From positions 1 to 64,000 of the forward strand of contig JAHIUA010000033.1 of NCBI GenBank assembly GCA_018817385.1: DNA of 64,000 nt. Reading direction: 5' to 3'. Position 1 is the first letter of the stretch. Each line of letters begins with the position of its first letter. A program made the position numbers and the translations under genes. The notes under the pieces are model-generated. The model searched no databases, had not been told where the DNA came from, and saw only the letters and a list, made by a program, of their open reading frames with translations. Shown piece by piece: positions 34,587-51,294 of this stretch. This DNA is from Pseudomonadota bacterium. GTDB taxonomy: Bacteria; Desulfobacterota; Desulfobulbia; Desulfobulbales; Desulfocapsaceae.

Positions 34587-35312
34587 TCAAAACAGCTTCA
34601 CCTGAAAGACAAAGACCTCATAGCGAAGGATCACTCCAGCACGGGTAATCTGCTGCAGAGAAAGACTCTTACTCACCTGGTCACCTTCACGAAGAATTCG
34701 GTTATTGATCATGATTAAGCGTTTTCCCGGGTCATCGGCATAGACATGGCCGGCAAAGGAGAGTTCAGGAATTTTTTCCCTGAGCTCAGTTGGCATCTCT
34801 TCGAGAAGAGGCAAGACGTTCTCTGGATTGTCCTCCACCACTGGCTGCGGTTCAGAAATCTCCAGATCTATCTTTTGAGGGCTTTCAGGTTCGACATCAG
34901 GAAGAACTGCTGAAGAAGGCGGCTGGTTCTGGCCCCTGACCTCTGCCATGGCCTGACGCACCTCCTGAGAAATTTGTACCAGAATTTCCTGCGACAGATC
35001 GCCTGAATCCGAAGCAGGAGTCAATGGGACTACGGCCTGAGATGTTCCAGGAGAAAGAGGAGGGGGAGAAGGTGAAAAAACCTCCAGCTCCTGGGCAAGC
35101 TGAGGCAGGTCCTTTTCCTCTCCCGTCCACCAAAACCACACGCCTCCGCCGAGCAAGAGGAAAGCCACAGCGCCTGCCAGCCATTTGGCCACCAACGATA
35201 CACGCTCTGGTCTATGGGCGGGAGGCAAAGAATGGTCGGCCTGAAGATCAGGCACTCCCTCCTTTTTCCGTTCCTTCTCCGACTTTTTCAGTGCTTCCAG
35301 AATATAGGACAT
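34587..35312 (-). CDS. gspB: type II secretion accessory protein GspB
   Basis: 241-aa inner-membrane protein that with GspA helps insert the secretin through peptidoglycan. The cytoplasmic N-terminus (MSYILEALKKSEKERK) is the GspB signature, one helix lies at residues about 42-66, then comes a Pro/Glu-rich periplasmic linker and the conserved C-terminal domain (GHVYADDPGKRLIMINNRIL, residues about 189-208). It follows gspA with a 110-base gap on the minus strand. Confidence 0.93.
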   Translation of the reverse strand: MSYILEALKKSEKERKKEGVPDLQADHSLPPAHRPERVSLVAKWLAGAVAFLLLGGGVWFWWTGEEKDLPQLAQELEVFSPSPPPLSPGTSQAVVPLTPASDSGDLSQEILVQISQEVRQAMAEVRGQNQPPSSAVLPDVEPESPQKIDLEISEPQPVVEDNPENVLPLLEEMPTELREKIPELSFAGHVYADDPGKRLIMINNRILREGDQVSKSLSLQQITRAGVILRYEVFVFQVKLF

Positions 35313-35422
35313 ACCGTTTTTTTCCCTGAGTCTTTTTTCCTTTATAACTCGTTTATCTCTTGCAACACTCTCTGGTACGTTGCAAAGAGTTGTCCCTCCA
35401 TCTCAGGATGTACTTACCCTGG

Positions 35423-36526
35423 TCACGCTTTTCTGCCCTGTCGAATCCTCTCCCCACTCTCTGCTGCTTTTCTTGTTTCTCCAAGGTCAAGACAAGGAGA
35501 AGCAGCTAGAAAGGAAAAGGCGGCAAGAGCGGGCGTTCGATTCGATTTCTCTTTCATTTTTTCCACCTGCCCTCCCTTGGACGGCAGCACTGATTCCAGA
35601 GAAATATTTTTGGAAAAATAAAACGTGGCTGCGCCAACACCAAGAATAAAAAGAAGCAAGGCCAGCAAAACAGTGAGCAACAGACGCCTTTTGTTTCTTC
35701 TTCCCGCTCGCCTTCCTCCAGTCCCCAACACCTCCTCAGCCGCCTGTTCAACGATGCTGGCATTGACCTGATATCTGCCTTCCACATAGGCACCAAGCAG
35801 GGCGCGATCACAGACAACATTGGTCAAACGAGGAATCCCTTGAGTCAATTGGTAAATTCTGGTTAGCGCTGCTTCAGAAAAAAGTTTTTCCCTCACCCCA
35901 GCCACGACCAGACGATGACGAATATAAGCAAAGACATCGGCTCGCCCAAGAGGCAACAGATGGTAGCGGGAGGTGATGCGCTGACTGATCTGATCGGCCC
36001 CTGAATTTTCCAGTATCTGCCTCAATTCACTCTGGCCCAGAAGGACGATCTTCAAAAGTTTTTTCTTGTGCGTCTCGAGATTAGTCAGAAGACGAAGGAG
36101 TTCCAGGAGATCAAGACTCAGGTTCTGGGCCTCATCAATGAGGAGTGCGGTATTTCTTCCTCTGGCATGGGCATCGAGGAGATAACGATTGAGGTTATCA
36201 ATATAAAACTTTGCACTTCTCTCACCCTCATCCAGGGGGATCTCCAATTCATCACAAATGGTTTCCAGAAGTTCGAGGTCTGTTAGGCGAGGATTAACGA
36301 TCAGGGCAACATCGGTGTTATCCGGCAGCTGTTCCAGAAGGCAGCGACACACCGTGGTCTTGCCGGTGCCGACATCTCCGGTCAACAGAATGAAACAGCC
36401 GTCACTGCTGATTCCATACAGGAGATGGGCCAATGCCTCGCGGTGCAACTCGCTCATGTACAGATAACGAGGATCCGGGGCAATGGAAAAAGGTTTTTCT
36501 TTGAAACCAAAGTAGTTTGTATACAT
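35423..36526 (-). CDS. gspA: type II secretion ATPase GspA (short form)
   Basis: 367-aa ExeA-type AAA ATPase. MYTNYFGFKEKPFSIAPDPR opens the protein, Walker A GDVGTGKTT is near residue 50 and Walker B ALLIDEAQNL near 131. A membrane helix (about residues 281-301) follows. Aeromonas-type GspA continues with a periplasmic peptidoglycan-binding domain; here the chain ends about 65 residues after the helix with no such domain visible. Either this lineage lacks it or the 3' end has changed. ATG 36526 begins the conserved sequence; a TTG at 36535 is also in frame. It diverges from gspF, with the 208-base gap probably holding both promoters. Confidence 0.9.
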   Translation of the reverse strand: MYTNYFGFKEKPFSIAPDPRYLYMSELHREALAHLLYGISSDGCFILLTGDVGTGKTTVCRCLLEQLPDNTDVALIVNPRLTDLELLETICDELEIPLDEGERSAKFYIDNLNRYLLDAHARGRNTALLIDEAQNLSLDLLELLRLLTNLETHKKKLLKIVLLGQSELRQILENSGADQISQRITSRYHLLPLGRADVFAYIRHRLVVAGVREKLFSEAALTRIYQLTQGIPRLTNVVCDRALLGAYVEGRYQVNASIVEQAAEEVLGTGGRRAGRRNKRRLLLTVLLALLLFILGVGAATFYFSKNISLESVLPSKGGQVEKMKEKSNRTPALAAFSFLAASPCLDLGETRKAAESGERIRQGRKA

Positions 36527-36734
36527 CGCTATCAAGGTAAAAAAATCAACAGGGGAGGCAGATAACCTTGCAGTGAGGGCTTAAAGGATTGCTGGGAATG
36601 GCATCGGTACTCACAATGAATTTGCTCCGTCTGCCTCTTTTTTCCTATTTCATGTTGATATTATTTACAGTATTACTACCATAGAAAAGAAATGGACAAG
36701 GTTTTTTCAATTTTTTGCCAAAAAGCAGCAGAAT

Positions 36735-37958
36735 ATGCCTGTATACGAATACAACGCGCTGGACCAGAAAGGGAAGTCATGCAAAGGACTCATTGATGCG
36801 GACAGCGAAAGCAGTGCCCGCAGCAAACTGAGAGCTGCAGGCAAATACCCGGTCAGTCTGCGGGTAAGCCTGAACACAGGAGAAAAAGACAGAAGACAAA
36901 GTTTTTCCAACGGATTCCTGTTTGATCGAATCAAATCAGAAGAGACCTACCTTTTCACCAGACAACTTGCCACCCTCCTGGGTGCAGGCATCCCCCTCAT
37001 CAATGCCCTGGCCTCTATTATTGAACAGAGCAGCAACCCTGCTCTGAAAAGAGTCCTGGCCCAGATCAGAGATTCGGTAAATGAGGGCTCCACCCTGACC
37101 AAGGCCCTGGCCAGACACCCCAAACTTTTCTCAAATATTTACATCAATATGGTTCGTTCCGGTGAAGCCTCGGGCTCCCTGGACATTGTTCTGGAACGAC
37201 TGGCCGACTTCGGAGAAAAACAGAAGGCCTTACAGGGCCGGCTGAAAGCTGCGCTGATCTATCCGATCTTCATGGCCGTTATCGGAAGCGGCATCCTCAT
37301 CTTCCTGATGAGTTATATCGTTCCCAACATTACCCGGGTGTTCACCGATATGGAACGGGCCCTGCCTCTACCCACCCGGATGCTCATTTTTGCCAGTGAT
37401 GCCCTGCGTAATTACTGGTGGCTTGGAGTATTGGTTCTCTTTGCCATCTTTTTTGCTGTACGCCTTTTCCTGGCCCGGGAGAAAGGACGCAGGATCTGGG
37501 ATAGAATCAAGCTCTCGCTCCCCATTACCGGAGCAGTGACCCGCAAGATCATCCTGGCCCGCTTTGCCTCTACCCTGGGAAGTCTCTTGAACAGCGGCGT
37601 TCCCCTCATTGTTTCACTGCAGATCGTCAACAGCATTGTCAACAATCGACCGGTCTGCGAGGTCATTGAGGTGGCCATGGAGCAGATCCAGAAGGGAAAG
37701 AGCATGAGCAGCGCCTTTGAGTCCTCTGTCTGGTTTCCTCCAATCTTTATCCAGATGATCGGAGTGGGTGAACAGAGCGGCCAACTCGAATCAATGCTTG
37801 AAAAGGTTGCCCGGACCTATGAACGTGAGGTGGAAACTGCTATTCTGGGAATGACCTCTCTCATTGAACCAATCATGATTACTGCCATGGGCGCGGCCGT
37901 CGGGTTTGTCGTCCTCTCTATCCTCCTCCCTATCTTTGAAATGAACCAGATGATATAA
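36735..37958 (+). CDS. gspF: type II secretion inner-membrane platform protein GspF
   Basis: 407-aa polytopic protein of the GspF/PilC family that couples the ATPase to pseudopilus assembly. It opens with MPVYEYNALDQKGK, has two repeated T2SF domains (one beginning FTRQLATLLGAGIPLINAL at about residue 75, the second near residue 275) and three membrane helices (about 170-195, 222-245 and 375-400). It heads the plus-strand gsp operon. Confidence 0.97.
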   Translation: MPVYEYNALDQKGKSCKGLIDADSESSARSKLRAAGKYPVSLRVSLNTGEKDRRQSFSNGFLFDRIKSEETYLFTRQLATLLGAGIPLINALASIIEQSSNPALKRVLAQIRDSVNEGSTLTKALARHPKLFSNIYINMVRSGEASGSLDIVLERLADFGEKQKALQGRLKAALIYPIFMAVIGSGILIFLMSYIVPNITRVFTDMERALPLPTRMLIFASDALRNYWWLGVLVLFAIFFAVRLFLAREKGRRIWDRIKLSLPITGAVTRKIILARFASTLGSLLNSGVPLIVSLQIVNSIVNNRPVCEVIEVAMEQIQKGKSMSSAFESSVWFPPIFIQMIGVGEQSGQLESMLEKVARTYEREVETAILGMTSLIEPIMITAMGAAVGFVVLSILLPIFEMNQMI

Positions 37959-38099: not shown

Positions 38100-40253
38100 A
38101 TGAAATTATTCTTACGAACTTTTTCTCTGCTTCTTCTCACCATGATTCTCCCTGCTCTTTCACCGGCCCAGGAAAGTCTCGATCCAGATTTTGGCCACAA
38201 TGGACAGCTGACAACAGACTTCTCCATCTATAACGATGAGGCCTACGCCATTGCTGTGCAGGCTGACGGCAAGATCCTGGTGGCGGGACAGAGTGAAAAC
38301 GGTGCAGATACAGACATCGCCCTGGCCCGGTACCTGGCCGATGGCAGCCTGGATACTGACTTTAGCTCAGACGGTCAAGTAACCGTGGCAGTGGGATCCG
38401 GAAATGACAGGGGGCTGGCCCTGACCATCCAGGAAGACGGTAAGATCCTGGTGGGTGGCACAACAGCCAACGAGAATGACATGGACATTACCGTTGTCCG
38501 TCTGACTGCAGATGGCCTCCCCGATATGGACTTTGACCAGGATGGACAGATGAGCATCCCCCTGCCTGACACCAATGACAGCACCCAGACCGTGCTGGTG
38601 CAGACAGATGGCAAGATTATCCTGGCCGGCAGCAGTGAAGGGAGCAGCACAACACACCTCTTTATTGCCCGCCTCAACGGTGACGGCTCCCTGGACACTA
38701 CTTTCAATGGCAATGGTATCGTTACGGACACAGGCAGCAACGACTGCGCCGCCTACAGTGGTGCCTTAGTCGATGACGGCCGCATTCTTCTTGGCGGCTT
38801 CAGGGACACTGATGGTCAAAAGCGGGCAACACTCTTTTCTTTTCTCAGTAATGGACAAGTTGACCAGAGCTTTGGCGATCAGGGCAGTAGCCTCCTGGAT
38901 GCAAATTATGTAAATTCAGTTTTTTACGACCTCGCCCTCCTTGAAGATGGAAATATTGTAGCAACTGGCGCAATCCAGGAAGAGTCCTATCGCTCAATCC
39001 TCCTCGCCCGATTCCTCTCCAGCGGGAAAATAGACCAAGACTTCAATGAACAGGGGACCGTAACAGCTGACCTGGGTACAGACAGTGTTGCCTACGGCCT
39101 TGCCATTGCCGCAGATGGCAGCATCTATCTTTCCGGATCCAGCAGCAGCGATCAGGATATGGATTTTATCCTCCTCCACTATACTGCCTCGGGCACACCG
39201 GTAATTGAGACCACAGAAGCACTGATGCAGGCAACAGCAACAAAATCAGTCAGCAGTGATTCCGTTGCCATCTCCTCGCTGCTCGTCGTTGACAGCGATT
39301 TCAGCAAAGAAGTTGTTTCAACAGTTAAGCCAACCTTTATCCTCACCGACTTTGAGCAGTACAACGATATTGCCCGGGCCATTTCCATCCAGAAAAGCGG
39401 TAACATCCTCCTGGCCGGATCGGTAGAAAACGGCAAAGATACAGATTTCGGACTGATCAGTTTCAGCACCGCAGACCTTTCCCAGCAGCGCATCATAAAT
39501 GGCATTGACACTACCGAAGGCTACTACATTGCTACCACACCGCCGACCCGTGTGACCCGTAACAGCGCTGCCAGCGGTGGTTTCCTTGAAAGTATAAGCA
39601 CAGATCCCCAGGACATCAGTCAGCGAGGAGTCTGCTACGGCATAACCCCTGCCCCCGGCCTCAAGGATGTGAGTGTCACTGATGAAACAACAACCGCAGT
39701 CGCCGACACCACAACAACGACGACAACTGTTGGAACTACTCTCCCTGTCCTGGCCACAACCGTTTACGAAGGCTGCACCACAGACGGGTCCGGAGTGGGA
39801 ACCTTTCGTAGTGACATTTTAGACATTACCCCAGACACCCTCTACTATGTAAGGGCCTATGCGGAACTCTCCGATGGTACTGTTATCTACGGCAATGAGC
39901 TCCAGTTCACGACCAAGGATGCCTGTTTCATCGCCACAGCAGCCTATGGCAGCCTCGATGACAGCCATGTCCTTGTTCTCCGTCAATTCCGCGACACCTA
40001 TCTCAAATCATCGGCACTGGGCAGAAAACTGATCAATCGCTACTATTTGCTTTCTCCCCCACTTGCCCAACTGATTTCTGAGCACCCAGCTGCGCAAGGC
40101 GCTGTTCGCCTGGCCATGGCCCCGGTGGCAACAATCAGCTATCTGAGCCTGCACCCTGTTTTGGCGGCACAACTTGTGGGTCTGTCCTTCCTCCTTCTTG
40201 GACTGCTTCAGTTTGTTTGCAGCACCCTGAAACAGGCGCCTGTAAAGGAATAA
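38100..40253 (+). CDS. secreted delta-60 repeat protein with C-terminal CFI-box
   Basis: 717-aa exported protein inside the type II secretion operon. A signal peptide covers residues 1-24 (core LLLLTMILPAL, cleavage after SPA). About six to seven units of the delta-60 type follow, each with LDxDFxxxGQ and ADGKILVAG-like strands every 45-60 residues (residues about 27-340). A Thr-rich region and a fibronectin-like segment (YYVRAYAELSDGTVIYGNEL) come next. The end has ACFIATAAYGS, LRQFRDTYLK and YYLLSPPLA followed by a hydrophobic helix: the CFI-box C-terminal module. ATG 38100 is preferred over an upstream ATG at 38052 because it begins the signal peptide. Location between gspF and gspG suggests a dedicated T2SS client; this is inference. 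Confidence 0.85.
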   Translation: MKLFLRTFSLLLLTMILPALSPAQESLDPDFGHNGQLTTDFSIYNDEAYAIAVQADGKILVAGQSENGADTDIALARYLADGSLDTDFSSDGQVTVAVGSGNDRGLALTIQEDGKILVGGTTANENDMDITVVRLTADGLPDMDFDQDGQMSIPLPDTNDSTQTVLVQTDGKIILAGSSEGSSTTHLFIARLNGDGSLDTTFNGNGIVTDTGSNDCAAYSGALVDDGRILLGGFRDTDGQKRATLFSFLSNGQVDQSFGDQGSSLLDANYVNSVFYDLALLEDGNIVATGAIQEESYRSILLARFLSSGKIDQDFNEQGTVTADLGTDSVAYGLAIAADGSIYLSGSSSSDQDMDFILLHYTASGTPVIETTEALMQATATKSVSSDSVAISSLLVVDSDFSKEVVSTVKPTFILTDFEQYNDIARAISIQKSGNILLAGSVENGKDTDFGLISFSTADLSQQRIINGIDTTEGYYIATTPPTRVTRNSAASGGFLESISTDPQDISQRGVCYGITPAPGLKDVSVTDETTTAVADTTTTTTTVGTTLPVLATTVYEGCTTDGSGVGTFRSDILDITPDTLYYVRAYAELSDGTVIYGNELQFTTKDACFIATAAYGSLDDSHVLVLRQFRDTYLKSSALGRKLINRYYLLSPPLAQLISEHPAAQGAVRLAMAPVATISYLSLHPVLAAQLVGLSFLLLGLLQFVCSTLKQAPVKE

Positions 40254-40375: not shown

Positions 40376-40843
40376 ATGCAACAACGAAGTATTTTTCTAA
40401 GAAAAAGGTCATCAAGCACAGAAGAGGGCTTCACCCTTATCGAACTGCTGGTCGTGCTTGTCATTATAGGTATCCTGGCCGGGTACGTAGGCCCCCGCAT
40501 CATGGGTCATCCGGAGGAGGCCAAACGGACCATGACTGCAGCTCAGATCAGTGGCCTGGAAACGGCCCTGGAGACGTACAGACTTGATAATGGGAGCTAC
40601 CCCAGTACGGAACAAGGCCTTCAAGCCCTGATCGAGCCACCAACTGCAGGGAAACTCCCCTCGAAATGGCGTGAGGGCGGATATATGGCAAAGGGGAAAG
40701 TCCCCAAAGATCCCTGGGGAAATGAGTATGTCTATCTCAGCCCAGGCAGTCACACTGATTTTGACATTATCTCCTACGGTGCAGACGGAGAATCCGGTGG
40801 TGAAGGAACCGATGCTGATATCAATAACTGGGAGTTAGAATAG
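40376..40843 (+). CDS. gspG: major pseudopilin GspG
   Basis: 155-aa major subunit of the periplasmic pseudopilus. The prepilin peptidase site is EEG/FTLIELLVVLVIIGILAG, cut between Gly and Phe, and the GspG features TYRLDNGSYPSTEQGLQAL and PKDPWGNEYVYLSPG with the calcium-loop region follow. The leader before the cut is about 23 residues, longer than usual, so ATG 40376 is the best of several in-frame starts. gspO, whose product cuts this site, is not in the window. Confidence 0.96.
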   Translation: MQQRSIFLRKRSSSTEEGFTLIELLVVLVIIGILAGYVGPRIMGHPEEAKRTMTAAQISGLETALETYRLDNGSYPSTEQGLQALIEPPTAGKLPSKWREGGYMAKGKVPKDPWGNEYVYLSPGSHTDFDIISYGADGESGGEGTDADINNWELE

Positions 40844-40846
40844 TCC

Positions 40847-41371
40847 TTGCAGGACAGACTGTCACATAGTCCCTTTAGACGACAGGGTTTTACCCTCCTG
40901 GAACTCCTGATGGTCTGCTTCCTGATCTCCATCAGTCTTGCCCTGGCCCTTCCCACCGTGCGCAACAGCCTGATGACGGATCAGCTGGCATCAGGATCAC
41001 GAAAGATCATTTCACTGATTAAAAGCGCTCGCAGCAAGGCAGTGATGACCCGGCAGCCCTATCTGATTTTTCTTGATCCTGCGGAACAGAGACTCTGGTA
41101 CCAGGAAGCAGGCGGAGACCGGGAAGAACCGTCTGCTGCTGTCCATCCCTCTATCACCCTCCCCGCCGGGGTTCATATTCTGGATATCAAACAGGCAAAC
41201 AGCGGCAACGATCAGAATGCTCTCAGCAATGGGCTATGGATCAGCAAACAAGGATATATGGATAAGACAGCCATCCACCTCGGCGATGGGAGCGATAAGA
41301 GTATCAGCCTCCTCATATCTCCTTTTCTCCATACCATTCAGGTCCTTGACGGACCCGTGCATTTTGAATGA
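40847..41371 (+). CDS. gspH: minor pseudopilin GspH (TTG start)
   Basis: 174-aa pseudopilin with cleavage site RRQG/FTLLELLMVCFLISIS. The only possible start ahead of the site is TTG at 40847, because an in-frame stop (the gspG stop) lies just two codons upstream and no ATG or GTG intervenes. Spacing and order within the operon are those of gspH. Length is typical. Confidence 0.9.
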   Translation: MQDRLSHSPFRRQGFTLLELLMVCFLISISLALALPTVRNSLMTDQLASGSRKIISLIKSARSKAVMTRQPYLIFLDPAEQRLWYQEAGGDREEPSAAVHPSITLPAGVHILDIKQANSGNDQNALSNGLWISKQGYMDKTAIHLGDGSDKSISLLISPFLHTIQVLDGPVHFE

Positions 41372-41387
41372 GGGTTCTTCCTTGTCC

Positions 41388-41795
41388 ATGAATAATTTGA
41401 CAAGGCCTTGCTGCAGCCGTACGACAGGTTTCACCCTGCTCGAGGTCATGATTGCCGTGGCCATTCTAGCCATAGCCCTGACCAGTCTCTTTGGTTCCCA
41501 ATCCAAGAGTGTAGCCCTGGCCACTGAGACCCGTTTCAATACACAGGCCCCTCTCCTGGCCCAGATGCAGCTGACAACCATCCTGGCCAGCGAAGAGATC
41601 ATTGCCGGAGAAGGCGATTTCGGCGATGAATTCCCTGGATTCAAGTGGATGTTGAGTGTTGAAGATGCCACCTTCGGAGAATCCGAGATCCTGCAAGAAC
41701 TGGATAGTGAACTGCAGTACCTCAGCTTGGTAGTCACCTGGGGAGACAGTGTCTACAGCTATCTACTTGACAGTTACCAAGTGAGTAACCCATGA
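41388..41795 (+). CDS. gspI: minor pseudopilin GspI
   Basis: 135-aa pseudopilin with TTG/FTLLEVMIAVAILAIALTS, the expected length for GspI, and a short globular domain. With GspJ and GspK it forms the tip complex. ATG 41388 leaves a normal 14-residue leader. The longer open frame reaches back into gspH and is not meaningful. It ends in an ATGA overlap with gspJ. Confidence 0.92.
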   Translation: MNNLTRPCCSRTTGFTLLEVMIAVAILAIALTSLFGSQSKSVALATETRFNTQAPLLAQMQLTTILASEEIIAGEGDFGDEFPGFKWMLSVEDATFGESEILQELDSELQYLSLVVTWGDSVYSYLLDSYQVSNP

Positions 41796-42469
41796 ATCTG
41801 AGGGACAGCATTCATTTGACAAAACAGGGGTTCACCCTTCTCGAAGTCCTGATGGCCATCGCCATTTTTGCCCTCGTCATGGGTCTGGCCTACGGCTCCT
41901 ACAATGCCACTTTCCGCATCATCAATGGAGCCGGCGCCCAGGCAGAAGTTTACTCCAAAGCCAGGACAACCATGGAAAGGATCCAAGAAGACCTGGAATC
42001 ATTTTTCCCTGGTGAAGATATGATATTTACCGGGACAAGCGAATCAACAGGGGAATACCGAGCCGACACCCTGCGCTTCACCTCCACCAGCCAAGTGATT
42101 CTGCATCCCGATCAAACTCCCATAGGCCACACCATCATTCACTATCAGGTGCAAACAGACCCTGAGACCAATACGCTCAGTCTCTACCGTTCCGAACTGC
42201 TGGCCCTGCCAGGGGCAACTGATGGAGAGGAAGACGACGAGGACCTGGGACTCCTGCTCTGTGACCAGTTACTGGAAGTAGCCTTTGACTATCGCAATCG
42301 GGATGGTGATGATGTAGAGGAATGGGAAAATGGGGATGAAGATACGGCTCTCACCTCCCTGCCTGAACAGATCACCATCAGCCTCCGCTTTGCAGATGGA
42401 CAAGAAGAGACGACAGGGACCCTGTTCAAAACCGCTCTGACCCTTCCCGGAGTCAAAAAGAGACCATGA
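41792..42469 (+). CDS. gspJ: minor pseudopilin GspJ
   Basis: 225-aa tip pseudopilin. The site KQG/FTLLEVLMAIAIFALVM follows a 13-residue leader, and the body shows the GspJ pattern (RTTMERIQEDLESFF and LLLCDQLLEVAFDYRNRDG). Asp/Glu-rich loops (DGEEDDEDLG) are longer than in textbook members. ATGA overlaps at both ends. Confidence 0.93.
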   Translation: MNLRDSIHLTKQGFTLLEVLMAIAIFALVMGLAYGSYNATFRIINGAGAQAEVYSKARTTMERIQEDLESFFPGEDMIFTGTSESTGEYRADTLRFTSTSQVILHPDQTPIGHTIIHYQVQTDPETNTLSLYRSELLALPGATDGEEDDEDLGLLLCDQLLEVAFDYRNRDGDDVEEWENGDEDTALTSLPEQITISLRFADGQEETTGTLFKTALTLPGVKKRP

Positions 42470-43497
42470 GACAGATCCTTGGCAACCACAGAGGCATGGC
42501 CCTGCTCCTGGTTATCAGCCTGGTGAGTGTGCTGGCCATCGTCACCCTGCAGTTTAACAGAGAGATGCGCCAGGAATATGTTGCCTCTGCCAGCCTCCGC
42601 AACAGTATCAGGTTGGGAGTAATGATCAGGTCTGGCATCACCTTGGCAGAACAAATCCTTCTCAAAGATCAAGAGGAGAACACTTTTGATTCCCTCCACG
42701 ACTCCTGGGCCCTTCTCAGTGGAGAAGACCTTTCTTTGCTCTTCGACCAGCAGTCTCTGGAGCTGGCAGTTATCGACGAGGGGGGAAAATTCCAGATAAA
42801 TGCCATGGTTACTCGTAAGAAGAAAGGGCAGGTTGTCAGCAACGGCAATGATGAGGAACAGGTACAGCATGAGATCGATGTCCGCAACATCCTCTGGCGA
42901 TTATTACGGGCAGAGCCCTATCTTGTCGAAGATGGAGATGCCAGAGAGATCATCGACGCTCTGATAGACTGGATGGACAGTGGAGACGGAGATGGAGAAG
43001 AAGAATATGGTGCCGAGGATAGCTATTACCAGTCTCTGGAGCCCCCTTATTCCTGCAAAAACGGACCGGTTGAATCCATTGCAGAACTGCTCCTGGTCAA
43101 GGGCATCACTCCTGAGCTCCTCTATGGCACAGACGAACGGCCCCCCTTGGCACCACTTCTCACGGCCTCGGCAAGTGATGGTAAAATCAATATCAATACC
43201 GCAGACGCTCTCCTTCTCCAGGCCCTGAACCAAGGCATGGACAAAGAAACGGCAGAGGCCATGCTCGCCTACCGCGAAGATGAAAATAACAGAGAACTGC
43301 TCGCTGACACAGGATGGTATCAAAATGTTCCTTCTTTTCCAGGTGATATTGAGTTACAAAAGGATCTGATTAAAACAGTAAGCAATTTTTTTAGAATCGA
43401 GGCCTCGGCTGGCTCCGATACAGAGAAAAAAACGGTTGCCGCAATAGTTGAGCGCCAAAACAAGGCAATTTCACTCCTGCGATGGGACACTCTTTAA
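42466..43497 (+). CDS. gspK: tip pseudopilin GspK
   Basis: 343-aa large pseudopilin capping the pseudopilus. The leader ends at NHRG/MALLLVISLVSVLAIV, lacking the usual Glu at +5 as is typical for GspK. The alpha domain carries DWMDSGDGDGEEEYGAEDSY and PYSCKNGPVESIAELLLVKG, the calcium-binding and helix-hairpin motifs of the family. It starts in an ATGA overlap with gspJ. Confidence 0.94.
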   Translation: MRQILGNHRGMALLLVISLVSVLAIVTLQFNREMRQEYVASASLRNSIRLGVMIRSGITLAEQILLKDQEENTFDSLHDSWALLSGEDLSLLFDQQSLELAVIDEGGKFQINAMVTRKKKGQVVSNGNDEEQVQHEIDVRNILWRLLRAEPYLVEDGDAREIIDALIDWMDSGDGDGEEEYGAEDSYYQSLEPPYSCKNGPVESIAELLLVKGITPELLYGTDERPPLAPLLTASASDGKININTADALLLQALNQGMDKETAEAMLAYREDENNRELLADTGWYQNVPSFPGDIELQKDLIKTVSNFFRIEASAGSDTEKKTVAAIVERQNKAISLLRWDTL

Positions 43498-43501
43498 CGT
43501 A

Positions 43502-45001
43502 ATGGCACATCAAATCCTTTCCATAGACCTGCAGCAGGATCTGTTGACAGCAGCCATCCTCGATGATGAAAAAACCCAGGAACTCCTTGCCTCCACTGTG
43601 GTGGTCACCGGAAGCAGACCCCCCGAGGAGGTAATCGCTGAACTGGCAGCAAAACTGGCCTGTGCTGATTGCCGCTGTTTTCTCTCCCTGGGAGCCTCAT
43701 TCTTCTCTTTCCGGAACCTCGTCCTGCCCTTTTCCGACCGTAAGTCCATCAACAAGATACTGCCCTTTGAACTTGAAGAAAGCACGGCAAACTCCATCGA
43801 CACCATGCTCATTGATTTCATGCTCAACAGCAGGGAAGGAGAAGAAACAGAAGTCATTGCCGCCATGATCGAACGAAAACTCCTCTCCGAATGGTATACT
43901 GCACTCCGGCAGGCAGGAATTTCCCCCGAGTTCATAACCCTATCCGGTCTTGCTACTCTTTCCAGCATTCGAGAAAATGGCAAGCCTCCGGAGGAATTCA
44001 TCTTCCTTGACTTGAGAATGGAAAATGCTGCTCTTTTCCTGGTCTCCTCGGACAGGCTGCAACTGATCAGACCTCTGGTCTTTGATGCAGGAAGAAAAGC
44101 GGGCTTCACCTTTGATGAAGAGAGCGGAGAAATACATATCCAAAGGCCTGAACATGGAGCCGAGGCCTTCCGTGAACTTTCCCTGGCCATCAAACAGACC
44201 CTGACCCCTCTTTCTCTTGCTACGCCGATGGCGACACTTCCCATTTATATTGATGGAGGTGCAGGATTAAGCCAATCGGCCACCACATGGCTGGATGCAG
44301 CCTTTAACAGGCCCTGTCTGGTCTGTGGCCGGGCCGGATTGCTTCCTCTCCCTTCCTCACTACCTGCTGAGACCGATCAGCATGCCCGTCTCCTCACCTC
44401 CTGCCTCAGTTTGGCTATCCAGGGAGGAAAAGCAAAAAACAGCTTCAATTTCAGCAAAGAGGAATTTGCTCCCCACCGAGGGCTGAGCAGCTACCGGGTC
44501 CAGCAACGACTGATCGCCTACCCTCTCATCGCCCTCCTCCTCCTTTCCCTGGGGTATCTCTGGTACAATACCAATGTCCTGAACAAACAACAGGCGGCCC
44601 TGGTTGCCGAGATCCGGGCCGTCTTCACAGAGACCCTCCCAGAAGTAAGCCGGGTGGTAGACCCCCTGCAACAGCTGCAGGTGGCCATCAACAAGAGCAG
44701 ACTTTCTTCCACAGAAGGTGAGGGAACCACTCTCCCCTATACAGTTCTCCATGTCCTGCGCGAGATTTCCACACGAATCCCCCCATCCTTGGACGTCCGC
44801 CTTACCCGCCTGGTCTACGAAAGCAAAGGGCTGCGTCTCATGGGCATCACTGACACCTTCAATACCGTGGATAGCCTGAAAAAGAATCTGGAACAATCAC
44901 CAGACTTTATCAGCGTGACCATCAGTTCCGCCAACCTGAACGCCAAAGACAGCAAAATTCGTTTTGAACTGAAGGTCGAATGTGGAGGTACCGCACCATG
45001 A
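43502..45001 (+). CDS. gspL: type II secretion protein GspL
   Basis: 499-aa inner-membrane protein linking GspE to the platform. The cytoplasmic part (residues 1-340) is actin-like (PilM-like) with NKILPFELEES, the membrane helix is near residues 338-360 (IAYPLIALLLLSLGYLWYN), and the periplasmic ferredoxin-like domain ends the chain. ATG 43502 lies 4 bases after the gspK stop; the frame upstream of it runs inside gspK. Confidence 0.92.
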   Translation: MAHQILSIDLQQDLLTAAILDDEKTQELLASTVVVTGSRPPEEVIAELAAKLACADCRCFLSLGASFFSFRNLVLPFSDRKSINKILPFELEESTANSIDTMLIDFMLNSREGEETEVIAAMIERKLLSEWYTALRQAGISPEFITLSGLATLSSIRENGKPPEEFIFLDLRMENAALFLVSSDRLQLIRPLVFDAGRKAGFTFDEESGEIHIQRPEHGAEAFRELSLAIKQTLTPLSLATPMATLPIYIDGGAGLSQSATTWLDAAFNRPCLVCGRAGLLPLPSSLPAETDQHARLLTSCLSLAIQGGKAKNSFNFSKEEFAPHRGLSSYRVQQRLIAYPLIALLLLSLGYLWYNTNVLNKQQAALVAEIRAVFTETLPEVSRVVDPLQQLQVAINKSRLSSTEGEGTTLPYTVLHVLREISTRIPPSLDVRLTRLVYESKGLRLMGITDTFNTVDSLKKNLEQSPDFISVTISSANLNAKDSKIRFELKVECGGTAP

Positions 45002-45576
45002 CCCTTTCTTCTCTGCCCACTCTCCTGCAGCCCCTGATCGAAAAAATAGGCTGGGAGCGCATGGTCAAACGTGAAAAAATCATGCTTGCTGGCCTGGTTC
45101 TCTTTGCCGGGAGTGTACTCCTCTTTCATTTCCTTTTTTCGCCCCTCCTGGATTCCAGGCAACGACTGAAAAACTCCATAAGCGTCAAAGAAACGGAGCT
45201 CCAGCAGATCCGCGACTTGCAGAAAGAATATCAGGCCCTTCAGCACCAGACAGGGGATATCCAAGAACGAATAAGCAATAGGCCCAAGGCCTTCACCCTT
45301 TTTTCCTTTATCGAACTGCAGGCTGCCGAAGCCAAAATAAAAGAACAGATCAGCTATCTCAAGCCCAGTGAGATAGAAGGAGAGAGTGCCCTGAAAGAAT
45401 CACGGGTGGATATGAAACTGCAGAGGATCAATCTTGATGATCTTGTCAATTTCCTCAAAGGCCTCGAATCACCAAAGGATGTGGTTTTCATCAACCGGAT
45501 CTCTATCCAGGAACATGGCAAGGATGAGGGCTACGTAAATGCCGTAATTCAGATTATCACCTTCAGGGAAGCATGA
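44998..45576 (+). CDS. gspM: type II secretion protein GspM
   Basis: 192-aa partner of GspL. Short cytoplasmic start, one membrane helix (residues about 28-50), a coiled coil (ISVKETELQQIRDLQKEYQA) and a ferredoxin-like periplasmic domain. ATGA overlaps at both ends. Confidence 0.88.
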   Translation: MTLSSLPTLLQPLIEKIGWERMVKREKIMLAGLVLFAGSVLLFHFLFSPLLDSRQRLKNSISVKETELQQIRDLQKEYQALQHQTGDIQERISNRPKAFTLFSFIELQAAEAKIKEQISYLKPSEIEGESALKESRVDMKLQRINLDDLVNFLKGLESPKDVVFINRISIQEHGKDEGYVNAVIQIITFREA

Positions 45577-46466
45577 TGAATTTCCTCAGAAACAGACTTG
45601 TTCTCTCTTGCAGCCTGATCCTCTACACCCTGCTCCTGACTGCGGCCCTGCTCTACTTCCGTTTTCCTGCTGAAAAACTCAAACTCTCCTGTCAATTGAG
45701 ACTGGAACAGCTTTTGTCTGTGAACCATTGCACCATTGGTCAGCTCAGTTATCATTTCCCTTTCAGCATGGTAGCCAATGAGATACAATTCAGCAGCAGA
45801 ACAGGAGAAGGAGGCCAGCTGGTCACCGTTGATCAGGCCATCCTTACCCCAGCCCTGACAAGCCCGAAATCACGTTTTCTGGTCACCCTGAACGCCTGCG
45901 GCGGCAAGCATGATTTCGCCCTGATCCTGAATCGTACTGAAAATGAATTCACTCTCAAGGATATTCGCCTCAGGGATCTCGACCTGGCCCAACTCCCTTT
46001 TCTCCGGCAGGCCACAGCAAGGGAAATCACTGGCAGTCTTGAAGGAAGCGGAACCTATCATGGCATCCGGAAAAATGGAAAATACGAAACCGACGGCCAA
46101 GGGACAATAACCTTGAGCAAGGGAAGCTTCGGCCTCCTCTATCCCATTCTCTCTCTCAAGAACATCGATCTCCAAAGCTTTCAAGCAGATATCTCTCTTC
46201 AAGGAGACGACCTGAAATTCAGCAACGGGACCTTCAGTGGGCAGGAACTCAAAGGAGATTTTTCCGGCATTCTGGGCCTGAAGACGGGATTGGCCACTTC
46301 CTCCCTCGCCTTTCAAGGAAAACTGGACCCTCTGCCACCCCTCTTAAAAAAGAGCAAACATGCCAAAAACATGGTAAATCAACTGAAGAAACAACGTAAT
46401 CAAACTGGCCTTCCCTTTCGTCTGAATGGGGTAGTACAAAAACCGAGCTTCCGTTTTTCCCCCTGA
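45573..46466 (+). CDS. gspN: type II secretion protein GspN
   Basis: 297-aa protein with an N-terminal membrane helix (residues about 8-28) and a beta-rich periplasmic body of the GspN type, related to AsmA-like lipid-handling folds (KGSFGLLYPILSLKNIDLQS, LKGDFSGILGLKTGLA). GspN is not present in all T2SS; its role in secretion is unsettled. The ATG overlaps the gspM stop. Confidence 0.82.
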   Translation: MMNFLRNRLVLSCSLILYTLLLTAALLYFRFPAEKLKLSCQLRLEQLLSVNHCTIGQLSYHFPFSMVANEIQFSSRTGEGGQLVTVDQAILTPALTSPKSRFLVTLNACGGKHDFALILNRTENEFTLKDIRLRDLDLAQLPFLRQATAREITGSLEGSGTYHGIRKNGKYETDGQGTITLSKGSFGLLYPILSLKNIDLQSFQADISLQGDDLKFSNGTFSGQELKGDFSGILGLKTGLATSSLAFQGKLDPLPPLLKKSKHAKNMVNQLKKQRNQTGLPFRLNGVVQKPSFRFSP

Positions 46467-46474
46467 TCCATTTA

Positions 46475-47290
46475 ATGCCCATGACTACCCGTCTCTCCAT
46501 CATAGGTTCCTTTGTCCTGGCAACCCTCCTGGCCGCAGCGAGCGTCGAGCTATTCTGCCGGTCCCTGGAGCACGCCTTGGTCGTGGAAGAACAGTCGTCA
46601 ACAGCCGAGGCCTCAGGACCTGCCAGAATGGAGTCCGCTGCTCCAGCTCCCGGTAACGCAGTAAATCCAAGAGAAAACAGTATAGATTACACGATTATCA
46701 GCAAACGCAGCCTGTTCGGGAAGGTTCAGCAAGAGACGGTCGAGGCCCCTCCCACAGCAGCCCCTGTCCTGGAGGCTACCTCTCTGGATCTGACCCTGCT
46801 CGGAACCATCAGCGGTGGCGTCAACGAGCAGAGAGCCATCATTCAGGACAAAAGGAAAAAAACTCAGGACATCTATTACCAAGGCGATTCCGTCGGACCG
46901 GCCCTGATTAAAGAAATTCTCCGCGGCAAGATTATTCTCACGGTGAGAGGCAAGGACGAAGTCCTTCTTATGAAAGAGCCGAAGAGTTCTGGCGCAAGAG
47001 GAAACACAACTCTTTCATCTCCTCTGATCAATCAGTATGAAATAGAACAGCCAGAACCAATCATTGAAGAAGAGCCGGAACCCATAACTGAAGAAGAGCC
47101 GGAAGGAATTACTGATGAAGTCATTGAGCCCGAGGAGCAGGCAGAAGAGTTAGATCCAGACCTGTCCCCTCCCGTTGCCGAAGATGAAGTGAAAGGCGGG
47201 CCAGGTGGACAAAGTCAACGCCCCGGTTCCATGACTCCCCCACGAAGGGTCTCTTTTAAAAAGAATAACACTCAGGTAGCTGAACCATGA
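46475..47290 (+). CDS. gspC: type II secretion protein GspC with Glu-rich tail
   Basis: 271-aa inner-membrane protein that contacts the secretin. An N-terminal helix (residues about 7-27) leads through a linker to the homology region (SLDLTLLGTISGGVNEQRAI, about 107-126, then YYQGDSVGPALIKEILRGKI). After residue 180 there is no PDZ or coiled-coil domain but an acidic segment with an 8-residue repeat (EPIIEEEP, EPITEEEP), matched by a 24-base DNA repeat near 47064-47110. The ATGA overlap with gspD is intact. Confidence 0.88.
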   Translation: MPMTTRLSIIGSFVLATLLAAASVELFCRSLEHALVVEEQSSTAEASGPARMESAAPAPGNAVNPRENSIDYTIISKRSLFGKVQQETVEAPPTAAPVLEATSLDLTLLGTISGGVNEQRAIIQDKRKKTQDIYYQGDSVGPALIKEILRGKIILTVRGKDEVLLMKEPKSSGARGNTTLSSPLINQYEIEQPEPIIEEEPEPITEEEPEGITDEVIEPEEQAEELDPDLSPPVAEDEVKGGPGGQSQRPGSMTPPRRVSFKKNNTQVAEP

Positions 47291-49581
47291 TCTGTATGCC
47301 CACCCAAACTCTTTCCGAAAGAATCAGGCCCCTGTCCCTGGTCCTTCTCTATTTCACTCTGATTCTTCTTCCCGGTATGGCAAGAAGTGCAGAACAGGAC
47401 CTTTCCCAGCCCCGTCCTCAGACTGGATCCCAGCGTTTTATCACCATTGATTTCGACAATGTGGACATCCTCCTCTTTATCAAATATATCAGTGAACTTA
47501 CCGGGAAAAACTTCATCATCGACAAAACGGTAAAAGGAACCGTCTCCATCATTTCCCCCACCAAGATTTCCGAGGAAGAGGCCTACCGGGTCTTTGAATC
47601 GGTGCTCGATGTCAACGGCTTTACCACGATTGAGTCCGGCTCAATGATCAAGATCATGCCTTCGGTCAGGGCCCGTACCGAAAATATCGATACCCTGAGC
47701 CATGGGAGAACTTCGAATCCGGAAGACAGGATCGTGACGCAGCTCATCCCCCTTACCCACTCTACTCCAGACGAGATGAAAAAGGTACTGGCCCCCCTGG
47801 TTTCCAAGACCTCGGTGGTCATCGCCCACACCCAGTCCGGAATGCTGATCGTCACTGACACTCTCTCCAATATCCAGAAGCTGCTGTCCATCATTAAGAC
47901 CATTGACGTCGATTACAGCAGCGATGAGCTGGAAGTTGTATCCCTGGAAAATGCCACTGCCAGCACCTTGGCCACTACCATCAGTTCCATCTTTCAAAGC
48001 TCGAATATTCAAAAAGGATCAAGGGCGACCAGCGGCATCAAAATAGTTTCTTATGATCGTATCAATGCCCTGATCATTCTGGCAGGCCCAGGAGACATCC
48101 TCCGGGTCAAACGACTGGTTGCCATGCTCGACTCCCAACCGGAACAGAATGAAGGAAATATCCAGGTGGTCTATCTCCAGCACGCCACAGCTAAGGATCT
48201 GGCTGCAGTTCTTACCAACCTTCCGGGCCAACAGACCGGCACCGACGGTCCAAACAAATTACCGGCCATCTCTAAAGATGTCAAAATCATGGCGGACGAG
48301 CAGACAAACTCCCTCATCATCACCGCCTCCCGTTCCGAATTCAAGGTCCTGGAAAACGTGATCAAGAAGCTCGATATTGCACGCCGCATGGTCTACATTG
48401 AGGCCCTCATCATGGAGGTCAACACGGATACCACCTTTGAGGTAGGAGTCAATTGGCTCGGAGCAGGGGCCTTTTCTGATAACACCGGTGCCCTGGTCAG
48501 TGGTTGGGGAGGAAGTGACGGATTTGCCATGGACGGAGCCATCAGCACCAATGATGACGGGGCCGTCTCCGTAGGTACCGGCTTTAGCCTGGGCGTCCTG
48601 AAACAGGGAATAGAAATCGGAGGAATCACCTTCCCCAATATTGCCGCAATCCTGAAGGCCTATAAGAGTAATTCCAATTTTAACATCATCTCCACCCCGC
48701 AACTTCTGACAACGGATAACCAAAAAGCCGAGATCAGTGTCGGTGAAAACCGTCCCTACCTCACCAGAACTTCTGAGGCAGACAGCGGTACCGGATATCA
48801 AAATTATGAATATAAGGACATTGCCACCAAGCTGATCATCACTCCTCAGATCAATCAGGCCGACACCCTGCGCCTGGAAATCTCTACCGAGGTCAGCAAA
48901 CTCAACACCAGTGCCTCCGAGGTTGACCGTCCTGTAACCTTTAAACGAACTGCCGAAACCACTGTCTTGGTTCAGGATAACGACACCATTGTCATTGGTG
49001 GCATTATCGGTCATGATGCCACGGAAGCAGAGTGGAAGATTCCCCTGCTCGGCGATATTCCCATCCTCGGTTGGCTGTTCAAGACCCATAACACCTCTCA
49101 TTTAAAGACCAACATGTTCATCTTTATCACCCCCCATATCATCAAAAACCCCGCAGATATCGCCCGGGTAACTCTGACCAAAGAAGAACAGCTCGACAAG
49201 GTCATGCCCGAAGTTAAGGAGCAGCTGCATCAACAGACCAACCTCGACCATGCCCTGAGCCTCTCTGATATCGGTTTTCAGAGAATGCAGGCACAGCGCT
49301 ATGATGAGGCGGAAAACTTTTTCAAAGAGGCTCTCGACATCAATCCAAACTCCCCCTATGCCTTGATGAACCTGGGAGTCATTTGCGAGCAGAAGGGCAG
49401 AACGATAGATGCCATCAAATATTACCAGCAGGTCATTGATAACAGAGAAGCCATTGGAAACGGCGGAACAGAGGATCCAGGCTCCAACACTTCAAATTTA
49501 AAGGAAATATGTAGAGAACACATTGAGCGCCTCAAAAAACAGGCTGATGACTGGCCCTATCCTGAAAACAATGTCCAATAA
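47287..49581 (+). CDS. gspD: secretin GspD with C-terminal TPR extension
   Basis: 764-aa outer-membrane channel of the T2SS. A signal peptide (about residues 1-36) is followed by N0 (FITIDFDNVDILLFIKYISE), N1-N3 ring domains and the secretin core with VPLLGDIPILGWLF-like IPLLGDIPILGWLF near residue 580 and TNMFIFITPHII near 607. After the secretin core the chain continues for about 120 residues containing two TPR units (SLSDIGFQRMQAQRYDEAEN from about 655, and NSPYALMNLGVICEQKGRTI). Most GspD proteins end with a short S domain for pilotin; this replaces or extends it. No lipobox is present. Confidence 0.94.
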   Translation: MICMPTQTLSERIRPLSLVLLYFTLILLPGMARSAEQDLSQPRPQTGSQRFITIDFDNVDILLFIKYISELTGKNFIIDKTVKGTVSIISPTKISEEEAYRVFESVLDVNGFTTIESGSMIKIMPSVRARTENIDTLSHGRTSNPEDRIVTQLIPLTHSTPDEMKKVLAPLVSKTSVVIAHTQSGMLIVTDTLSNIQKLLSIIKTIDVDYSSDELEVVSLENATASTLATTISSIFQSSNIQKGSRATSGIKIVSYDRINALIILAGPGDILRVKRLVAMLDSQPEQNEGNIQVVYLQHATAKDLAAVLTNLPGQQTGTDGPNKLPAISKDVKIMADEQTNSLIITASRSEFKVLENVIKKLDIARRMVYIEALIMEVNTDTTFEVGVNWLGAGAFSDNTGALVSGWGGSDGFAMDGAISTNDDGAVSVGTGFSLGVLKQGIEIGGITFPNIAAILKAYKSNSNFNIISTPQLLTTDNQKAEISVGENRPYLTRTSEADSGTGYQNYEYKDIATKLIITPQINQADTLRLEISTEVSKLNTSASEVDRPVTFKRTAETTVLVQDNDTIVIGGIIGHDATEAEWKIPLLGDIPILGWLFKTHNTSHLKTNMFIFITPHIIKNPADIARVTLTKEEQLDKVMPEVKEQLHQQTNLDHALSLSDIGFQRMQAQRYDEAENFFKEALDINPNSPYALMNLGVICEQKGRTIDAIKYYQQVIDNREAIGNGGTEDPGSNTSNLKEICREHIERLKKQADDWPYPENNVQ

Positions 49582-49608
49582 CTGTTGTAACGAACGACAA
49601 ATCCGACC

Positions 49609-51294
49609 ATGCAACACGCCGCAAGCTTCTTCATAGACAGGCTGGGTATCCCCGGCGAATCGATCCACCAGGCCCTGGACCTCCAAAAGGAAAAGGGAGG
49701 GACACTGGTGCGGATACTGGTACGGCAAAACATGGTAGACGAGATTGAACTGCTCAAGAAACTGGGTCGGGAAATGGGAATGGATCATACCATCTCCCTC
49801 CCCCCCGAAATCCAGACCGAATTTACTGCCTCCATCCCCATCGCCTTTTTAAAGAAACATATCATGGTCCCGGTGGCCGTTGGTGATGACGCCTTTATCG
49901 CCATCAATGATCCCTTCAACTTCCAGGCCCTGGATGACCTCCGGCGTCTCTTGGGCTGGGTAGGGGTGCGTCCGGTGCTCTGCCCCCAGGCTGCCATTGT
50001 CTCAGCCATCAACTTTGCCTATGACATGACCCAGAACACGGCAGAGGAGGTAATGCAGGATATCGACGAAGAAGACCCAGAGGCCTTGTTCTCCGAGATC
50101 CAAGAAACCGGAGACCTGCTTGATGACACCAGTGACTCACCGGTGATTCGCCTGGTCAATCTCATGTTTTCCCAGGCCGTACGTGATAATGCCTCTGATA
50201 TCCATATCGAACCGTACCAGAACTCGTTAAAAATCCGCCAACGCCTGGACGGCATCCTCTACGGCATGTTCAACCCGCCGAAACATGTGCAGTCAGCCCT
50301 GATCTCCCGCATTAAGATTATGGCCAATCTCAACATTGCCGAGAAACGTCTCCCCCAGGACGGCCGAATAGAACTCAAGGTGGCCAACAAGGATGTGGAC
50401 ATCCGTGTCTCCACTCTCCCCACTGCCTTTGGCGAACGGGTGGTGCTCCGCCTCCTCGACAAGTCTTCGGTCCTTATCTCCCTTACCGACCTGGGTATGC
50501 CAGAGGACCGCTTCATTCCCTTCTCAGAGCAGATCAGGGCAGCCAACGGAATTGTCCTGGTCACCGGCCCCACAGGAAGCGGAAAAACCACCACCCTCTA
50601 TGCGGCTCTCACCTCCATCAACAACACTGATATCAACATCATCACCGTGGAAGACCCCATCGAATACCGAATCAGCGGTATTGGCCAGGTCCAGATAAAT
50701 CCTAAAATCAACCTCACTTTTGCCTCTGGCCTTCGCTCCATTGTTCGCCAGGACCCGGATGTCATCCTGGTGGGAGAGATCCGCGATACCGAGACCGCCA
50801 AGATTGCCATCCAGTCGGCCCTTACCGGTCATCTGGTCTTTTCCACCCTCCATACCAACGATGCGGCCAGCGCCATCACCCGCCTCATTGACATGGGTAT
50901 AGAGCCTTTCCTCCTTTCCTCCTCCATCAATGCCATCCTGGCTCAGCGTTTGGTGCGTATTATCTGTCCCCACTGCAAGGAAGGTTATATCCCGGATCCG
51001 ATTGCCATCAGAAAACTCGGCCTCACGCCAGAGGAAATGGAAGGTAAACTGGTGTACCGTGGCCAGGGCTGTTCTAAATGTCACCACACCGGATTCAAGG
51101 GACGCTGCGGTATTTTTGAACTTCTACTCATGAATCAGTCCATGAAACATCTGGTTCTTAATACGGCCAACGCCAACGACATCAAAGATCATGCCGTCAA
51201 AAATGGGATGATCACCCTGCGCCGCGACGGCGCCGACAAGGTACTCAAAGGGATCACGACCATCGAGGAAGTGTACCGAGTGTCTCAAGAATAA
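49609..51294 (+). CDS. gspE: type II secretion assembly ATPase GspE
   Basis: 561-aa cytoplasmic hexameric ATPase that drives pseudopilus assembly. It has an N-terminal MshEN/GspE-N domain (residues about 1-150), Walker A GPTGSGKTTT near residue 320, the Asp and His boxes, Walker B VGEIRDTETA and a four-cysteine zinc element (CPHC to CSKC, about residues 456-488). It is the last gene of the plus-strand operon, 27 bases after gspD. Confidence 0.96.
   Translation: MQHAASFFIDRLGIPGESIHQALDLQKEKGGTLVRILVRQNMVDEIELLKKLGREMGMDHTISLPPEIQTEFTASIPIAFLKKHIMVPVAVGDDAFIAINDPFNFQALDDLRRLLGWVGVRPVLCPQAAIVSAINFAYDMTQNTAEEVMQDIDEEDPEALFSEIQETGDLLDDTSDSPVIRLVNLMFSQAVRDNASDIHIEPYQNSLKIRQRLDGILYGMFNPPKHVQSALISRIKIMANLNIAEKRLPQDGRIELKVANKDVDIRVSTLPTAFGERVVLRLLDKSSVLISLTDLGMPEDRFIPFSEQIRAANGIVLVTGPTGSGKTTTLYAALTSINNTDINIITVEDPIEYRISGIGQVQINPKINLTFASGLRSIVRQDPDVILVGEIRDTETAKIAIQSALTGHLVFSTLHTNDAASAITRLIDMGIEPFLLSSSINAILAQRLVRIICPHCKEGYIPDPIAIRKLGLTPEEMEGKLVYRGQGCSKCHHTGFKGRCGIFELLLMNQSMKHLVLNTANANDIKDHAVKNGMITLRRDGADKVLKGITTIEEVYRVSQE

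Follow-up and report, generated by a model that had tools for sequence, protein, structure and literature searches.

Prepilin peptidase is known as an enzyme that removes short leaders, and the usual GspG, the major pseudopilin of the type II secretion system (T2SS), carries such a leader before its cleavage site. Two protein families, delta_60_rpt (TIGR02608)/DUF5122 and CFI_box_CTERM (NF041770), are likewise already known, in that both the delta-60 and the CFI-box family are held in NCBIfam; no mention of the CFI box or of the delta-60 repeat was found in the literature, as covered by open-licence papers. Among described C-terminal tags, MYXO-CTERM with its myxosortase and GlyGly-CTERM with its rhombosortase are the closest to the protein considered here, with which they share a C-terminal motif, a helix, a basic tail, occurrence on exported proteins and a link to T2SS; according to excerpts of the papers on MYXO-CTERM (PMC11980579) and GlyGly-CTERM (PMC13393428), both tags go with T2SS export. 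A Kelch-like propeller and a PilA cluster of cable bacteria were considered as well and set aside, as the excerpt of the paper (PMC10580974) points to a protein other than delta-60/CFI.

The locus lies in a 64,000-nucleotide stretch of DNA from a member of the Desulfocapsaceae, referred to as the window, and comprises the following features.

34587..36535, minus strand: divergent ORFs beside gspF, which we take to be gspB-like and exeA/gspA-like genes; neighbours conserved in relatives
36735..37958, plus strand: gspF (TIGR02120, 471.9 bits, cut-off 424)
38100..40253, plus strand: delta-60/CFI-box gene, 717 aa (ORF, NCBIfam, AlphaFold model with mean pLDDT 84.8)
38100..38171, plus strand: predicted Sec-type signal peptide MKLFLRTFSLLLLTMILPALSPAQ, read from the sequence (model helix 2–16; N-termini of relatives alike)
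38196..39473, plus strand: seven-bladed beta-propeller of delta-60/DUF5122 repeats, residues 33–458 (TIGR02608, DUF5122, VIA; blades counted from model strands)
39522..39911, plus strand: FN3-like beta-sandwich, residues 475–604 (model strands)
39924..40127, plus strand: CFI-box-CTERM domain, beginning CFIATAAYGS with Cys609 (NF041770, 88.6 bits in the genome search, 83.9 bits for the 733-aa ORF)
40155..40232, plus strand: C-terminal hydrophobic helix, predicted membrane span, residues 686–711 (AlphaFold model, hydropathy)
40376..40843, plus strand: gspG, major pseudopilin, with leader MQQRSIFLRKRSSSTEEG followed by FTLIE (TIGR01710, 180.1 bits, cut-off 88.85)
40847..51294, plus strand: gspH, I, J, K, L, M, N, C, D and E, the rest of the gsp cluster

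The gene at 38100–40253 is a single 717-aa ORF on the plus strand between gspF and gspG, running from an ATG at 38100 to a TAA at 40251–40253; the mechanical ORF, with a TTG start 16 codons before this ATG, is 733 aa long. Against NCBIfam, the 733-aa ORF matched delta_60_rpt in seven stretches (239.9 bits, cut-off 76.5) and CFI_box_CTERM at residues 625–692 (83.9 bits, cut-off 40, E 5e-24), the latter match being far above chance, and DUF5122 of Pfam scored 124 bits for the window protein. At E up to 0.001, the CFI-box match is the sole one in the 5.38-Mb genome. The motif ACFIATAAYGS occupies residues 608–618 of the 717-aa protein, and the hydrophobic helix is followed by a short tail of the LKQAPVKE type. 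The first-pass annotation had described a 717-aa repeat protein with this module between gspF and gspG, a description borne out by the ORF and by the TIGR02608, NF041770, TIGR02120 and TIGR01710 matches. Given the predicted signal peptide, the ectodomain should be exported.

In the AlphaFold model, built from 63 sequences (mean pLDDT 84.8), a signal helix leads into seven blades of four strands each, which are followed by a beta-sandwich and, after Cys609, by five helices. The closest solved fold of the propeller is that of CylK (7ron; VIA Z 43.6 over 343 residues at 2.3 Å), and the first chain of a protein other than CylK follows at VIA Z 33.6. Because the VIA rows span residues 22–467, the fold match concerns the propeller only, and it implies no CylK-type enzyme role for it. 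The FN3-like domain had no library match, its name being our reading of the model strands, and for the CFI box a sequence search up to E 1 returned no solved relatives; the profile of the whole protein gave four weak matches to solved chains, TRIM71 and PkwA, at E 0.02–0.06. Near the C-terminus there are two hydrophobic helices, both of which score as possible spans in many members, and the tail of 75 delta-60 proteins is basic on average, with 3.1 K/R and 0.4 D/E in the last 12 residues.

Compared with delta_60_rpt/DUF5122, to which its repeats belong at scores over the cut-offs, the window protein is distinguished by the CFI box and hydrophobic end helix with which its propeller is combined, and by being encoded among T2SS genes or, in relatives, fused to them. 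Unlike MYXO-CTERM and GlyGly-CTERM proteins, it has a long helical domain between the Cys and the end helix: the invariant Cys of MYXO-CTERM lies directly before the end helix, whereas Cys609 precedes the helix at 686 by about 75 residues. Neither the MYXO-CTERM (TIGR03901) nor the GlyGly-CTERM tag matched the window protein in NCBIfam up to E 1, and its sequence has no GlyGly before the end helix. The search for rhombosortase in the window genome gave a best TIGR03902 score of 38.8 bits against a cut-off of 84, and since the same search yields below-cut-off matches in 14 of 14 controls as well, a cognate sortase was rejected.

Within the surrounding cluster, gspK, L, C and D are backed by Pfam matches, gspH by an N-methylation motif as its sole basis, while gspI, J, M and E owe their names to gene position, to sequence and to cross-matches in relatives; the gene named gspN had no Pfam match, and the gspG start, an ATG at 40376, was read from the sequence. 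Pattern searches around the window gene gave seven promoter-type and four terminator-type sites, too near the 4.4 and 4.9 of shuffles to be informative. Two further observations concern this region: the secretin GspD (47287–49581) has a C-terminal TPR extension with TPR matches at about residues 656–721, and the minus-strand gene at 33729–34292, near a tRNA-Pro gene, encodes a 187-aa protein with a signal-like N-terminus and no NCBIfam match up to E 1.

To follow the gene across relatives, we used 257 genomes of the window's order, apparently the Desulfobulbales, 134 of which had a CFI-box match and 208 a gspG over the cut-off. The CFI loci are the best 151 CFI matches (120 genomes) of those in the 134 genomes, so that weaker matches are under-represented; 17 further regions were picked for the position of gspG, among them the two of G037 and G044 because of a long gspG frame, and loci L217–L295 were left out of the counts, as they largely repeat genomes already listed. 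The 165 CFI-box ORFs were classed as delta-60 type (89), lipase type (45), other (24) and shortened (7), and the matching loci include Desulfocapsa, Desulfobulbus, Desulfopila, Desulfogranum, Desulforhopalus and Electronema. Among the CFI matches listed, 53 of 77 delta-60/CFI loci have the gene immediately before gspG, a conserved place in gsp loci; of the others, one (L213) is 2.6 kb away, three are at contig ends and 20 are non-adjacent in the fetched stretch. Twelve delta-60 loci from the gspG-picked regions, which adjoin gspG by choice, were kept out of this count; adding them gives 65 of 89 genes directly upstream of gspG, in 88 genomes. In the class of other CFI ORFs, four adjoin gspG, all of them cut at contig starts, as do four of the shortened ORFs. 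All 76 genomes that hold the 77 delta-60/CFI loci have gspG, compared to 208 of 257 across the order; the 12 added genomes have it too, having been picked for it.

Within the window's genus, 12 of the 15 genomes that have a strong gspG match also have a CFI match, as against none of the five without strong gspG; in one of the three gspG genomes lacking a CFI match (G110), a fragment of the protein precedes gspG at the end of a contig. Three genomes of the genus (loci L056/L237, L053/L266 and L238) carry the gene beside gspE instead of between gspF and gspG. The similarity of the delta-60/CFI protein declines at the pace of that of GspH, GspJ, GspL and GspC. The suggestion of the first-pass annotation that the protein is tied to T2SS thus gains support from the adjacency to gspG, the presence of gspG in every genome concerned and the displaced copies beside gspE. 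A core component would be found in every T2SS of the lineage, whereas three genomes (G144, G125 and G130) have gspF followed by gspG with no delta-60/CFI gene and no CFI match genome-wide; judging from these loci, the gene is dispensable for gsp operons. As a separate observation, in 14 genomes of a second large family the delta-60/CFI gene is immediately preceded by a molybdopterin-binding (MoCF_biosynth) gene, and a similar gene also lies upstream in 10 genomes with gspG elsewhere, the identification coming from Pfam on L071 alone (L071:7910–8992).

The lipase class, defined by a GDS motif and with the GDSL lipase domain confirmed by Pfam in four members of four tried, behaves differently from the delta-60 class. 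None of its 45 loci among the CFI matches listed adjoins gspG, compared to 53 of 77 for delta-60/CFI (Fisher 7e-17 among the matches listed, a value that, like our other p-values, overstates the case because related genomes are not independent), which indicates that the association with gspG belongs to the delta-60 protein and is no property of the CFI box itself. Five of the 45 lipase-CFI genomes lack a strong gspG match, and three of them (G146, G155 and G158; 84–94% complete) have no gspG match at all, so the CFI box seems not to need T2SS, and the latter three genomes speak against a general role of the box in T2SS sorting; a further genome outside the classed loci, G124 (72% complete), has a CFI match and no gspG match. 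We therefore rejected the CFI box as a general T2SS mark, and within the order the lipase-type members of CFI_box_CTERM differ from the delta-60 members in lacking the link to gspG. The first-pass annotation would have been refuted by CFI proteins scattered independently of T2SS, a pattern that is true of the lipase class and untrue of the delta-60 class. In 41 of the 45 loci, the GDSL-lipase CFI gene is accompanied by a conserved neighbour on the same strand, at a median of 42 bp (e.g. L097, L061, L144 and L177); this neighbour is repeat-rich in sequence, with a weak GH43 match at best.

The co-occurrence of CFI-box and gsp genes across the phylum, also raised at first pass, holds as an association and fails as a rule: in the phylum sample, with CFI and gspG cross-tabulated by hand, gspG was present in 95 of 109 genomes with a CFI match (E up to 0.001) and in 180 of 286 without, indicating that the association is real, though not absolute. 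Of 46 outside-order genomes with both matches listed, four have a CFI gene no more than 10 kb from gspG, compared to a rough expectation of 0.5; two of these four belong to one family, and the ectodomains encoded there are of other types, including a subtilase. One outside-order locus (L303:6168–7922) encodes a subtilase (Peptidase_S8) with a CFI-box end directly upstream of gspF–gspG, and a Deltaproteobacteria MAG (L291) has three tandem CFI-box ORFs in which the domain ends 3–9 residues from the end, hence with no further membrane helix.

In 12 of 74 adjacent pairs, the delta-60/CFI gene and gspG form one uninterrupted ORF, whereas none of 471 other direct gsp neighbours is fused (p 2e-11); leaving out the loci fetched by gspG position, the counts are 10 of 59 and 0 of 378. 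The fusions occur in five genomes of the window's genus (G099, G101, G106, G112 and G115), in G119, G120 and G123, and in G037, G044, G045 and G048. A tree of 66 loci places them in three groups of relatives and requires at least four changes, three of which are imposed by well-supported branches; the lineage of the window itself, which comprises three genomes and shares a clade with five fused relatives, has separate genes. Each of the 12 genomes has a prepilin peptidase gene and, at E up to 1e-20, no GspG other than the fused copy, which matches TIGR01710 over the cut-off. Like the usual GspG, the fusions have the GFTLIE site and a preceding basic stretch, and all 12 combine a basic joint, this site and a hydrophobic helix, the sequence hallmarks of a prepilin peptidase substrate; in contrast to the usual GspG, they carry a whole exported membrane protein before the site in place of a short leader. 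The joints are 13–30 residues long, contain 2–8 K/R and 0–1 D/E and end at G|FTLIE, and the part before the cut site is 722–847 aa long in the 11 copies with a recognizable start, the G045 copy beginning at a contig edge.

The start codons bear on whether GspG could still be initiated separately. All 62 separate genes examined have an ATG 5–30 codons before the cut site, whereas five of the 12 fusions have none, and two (G101 and G037) lack ATG, GTG and TTG alike throughout the 40 codons before it. The other seven retain some ATG 5–30 codons upstream, which makes separate internal initiation possible there, and others retain TTG or GTG; of the two possible ATGs in the closely related G119, G120 and G123, none is common to all three. 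Long gspG frames from seven genomes outside the order (G474, G514, G570, G533, G282, G517 and G537) were rejected as fusions, because the portion before gspG runs, in a different frame, over gspF and in some cases over gspE too, and has no Gsp or CFI match. These spurious cases demonstrate that an open frame alone is no proof; in the true fusions, both known domains match in frame. The protein of G211 (L088), with a 195-aa tail after the CFI box but no prepilin site, was likewise rejected. The AlphaFold model of one fused end is weak, with a mean pLDDT of 68, and carries no weight for the topology.

We tentatively favor a model in which the delta-60/CFI protein is an inner-membrane-anchored T2SS accessory that is made together with GspG and, when fused, is released by prepilin peptidase. 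The protein would be exported by Sec through its signal peptide, with the propeller and the FN3-like domain on the periplasmic side; the CFI-box helical domain and one C-terminal helix would hold it in the inner membrane, and its short, mostly basic tail would reside in the cytosol. With the gene directly before gspG, and presumably transcribed with it, the two membrane proteins would reach the assembly platform at the same time. Three lineages lack the intervening stop codon, such that the propeller protein and GspG would be synthesized as one chain, which would pass from the periplasmic propeller through a single inward span to the cytosolic basic joint and then outwards through the GspG helix. 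The 13–30-residue joint may then serve as the GspG leader, with prepilin peptidase cutting the chain at G|FTLIE and leaving one anchored propeller per pseudopilin, so the separate and fused forms would yield the same two products. The leader of a pseudopilin precursor must be cytosolic, and combined with the fusion this implies that only one of the two hydrophobic C-terminal helices can cross the membrane. The end helix had been proposed at first pass as an anchoring signal; hydropathy and the topology demanded by the GspG fusions agree with a predicted membrane anchor. Under this model, which we hold with some reservation, the T2SS has gained an anchored propeller subunit that three lineages would make as a GspG polyprotein, with an internal peptidase cut and a 1:1 output, and that may act in the periplasm, e.g. 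as a contact for clients or for the pseudopilus, instead of being exported cargo.

The first-pass annotation had named a dedicated client beside an added part of the machine. As a client, the propeller would be T2SS cargo, held at the inner membrane by its CFI-box end and then released or handed on to the cell surface. We regard this as possible, if somewhat less probable than an accessory, and the same applies to its likening to the release or surface transfer proposed for MYXO-CTERM and GlyGly-CTERM proteins. It comes close behind because CFI boxes also occur on lipases and a subtilase and because the layout resembles these two tags; MYXO-CTERM, as excerpted from PMC11980579, combines an invariant Cys, a helix, a basic end and T2SS export. 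CFI boxes on enzyme-like exported ectodomains, namely the GDSL lipases and the subtilase upstream of gspF–gspG in L303, speak for a client, as do the existence of T2SS operons without a delta-60/CFI gene and the outside-order CFI genes within 10 kb of gspG (4 of 46 listed genomes, about 0.5 expected). The lipase-CFI genomes without a strong gspG (5 of 45, three without any match) argue against it, however, as does the position of the Cys about 75 residues before the end helix rather than beside it, and a fusion would bind one client copy to each pseudopilin. On balance, an accessory beside the pseudopilus seems to fit best, albeit without commanding full conviction.

That a surface or periplasmic protein merely shares the gsp cluster for convenience, the fusions being tolerated stop losses with internal starts, appears improbable. 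It would account for the ATG retained in the joint of L063, L064 and L050 and for the TTG codons in that of L194, and an intergenic terminator or promoter is possible, with pattern sites near shuffle level. It is at odds with the two fusions in which 40 codons contain neither ATG nor GTG nor TTG, with the persistence of fusions in three clades, with the absence of fusion from 471 other direct gsp pairs and with a cluster linkage that outlasts relocation to gspE. Sequencing or assembly errors are hardly a credible source of the fusions: 11 of the 12 fused genomes are multi-contig, but G037 is a single 2.77-Mb contig, and twelve genomes in three clades agree while their joints differ in sequence and length.

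From its sequence, we class the locus as a T2SS gene cluster to which a subunit or a client has been added, with an apparent pseudopilin polyprotein in part of the lineage. No similar case of GspG or prepilin fusions, long leaders or polyproteins was found in the titles and abstracts of the open-licence literature, nor did the portion of that literature covered report the place of the gene in the gsp cluster, its recurrence or the pseudopilin fusions. If the model is true, internal cleavage of a polyprotein at a prepilin site would represent a new way of tying the production of a subunit of the secretion machine to a partner, and the fusions would provide a direct genetic argument for the membrane side of the CFI-box tail. 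The delta-60 and CFI-box families, so far unexplained, would gain a concrete partner in the type II pseudopilus, in a host group that includes sulfur-cycling relatives of Desulfocapsa and Desulfobulbus.
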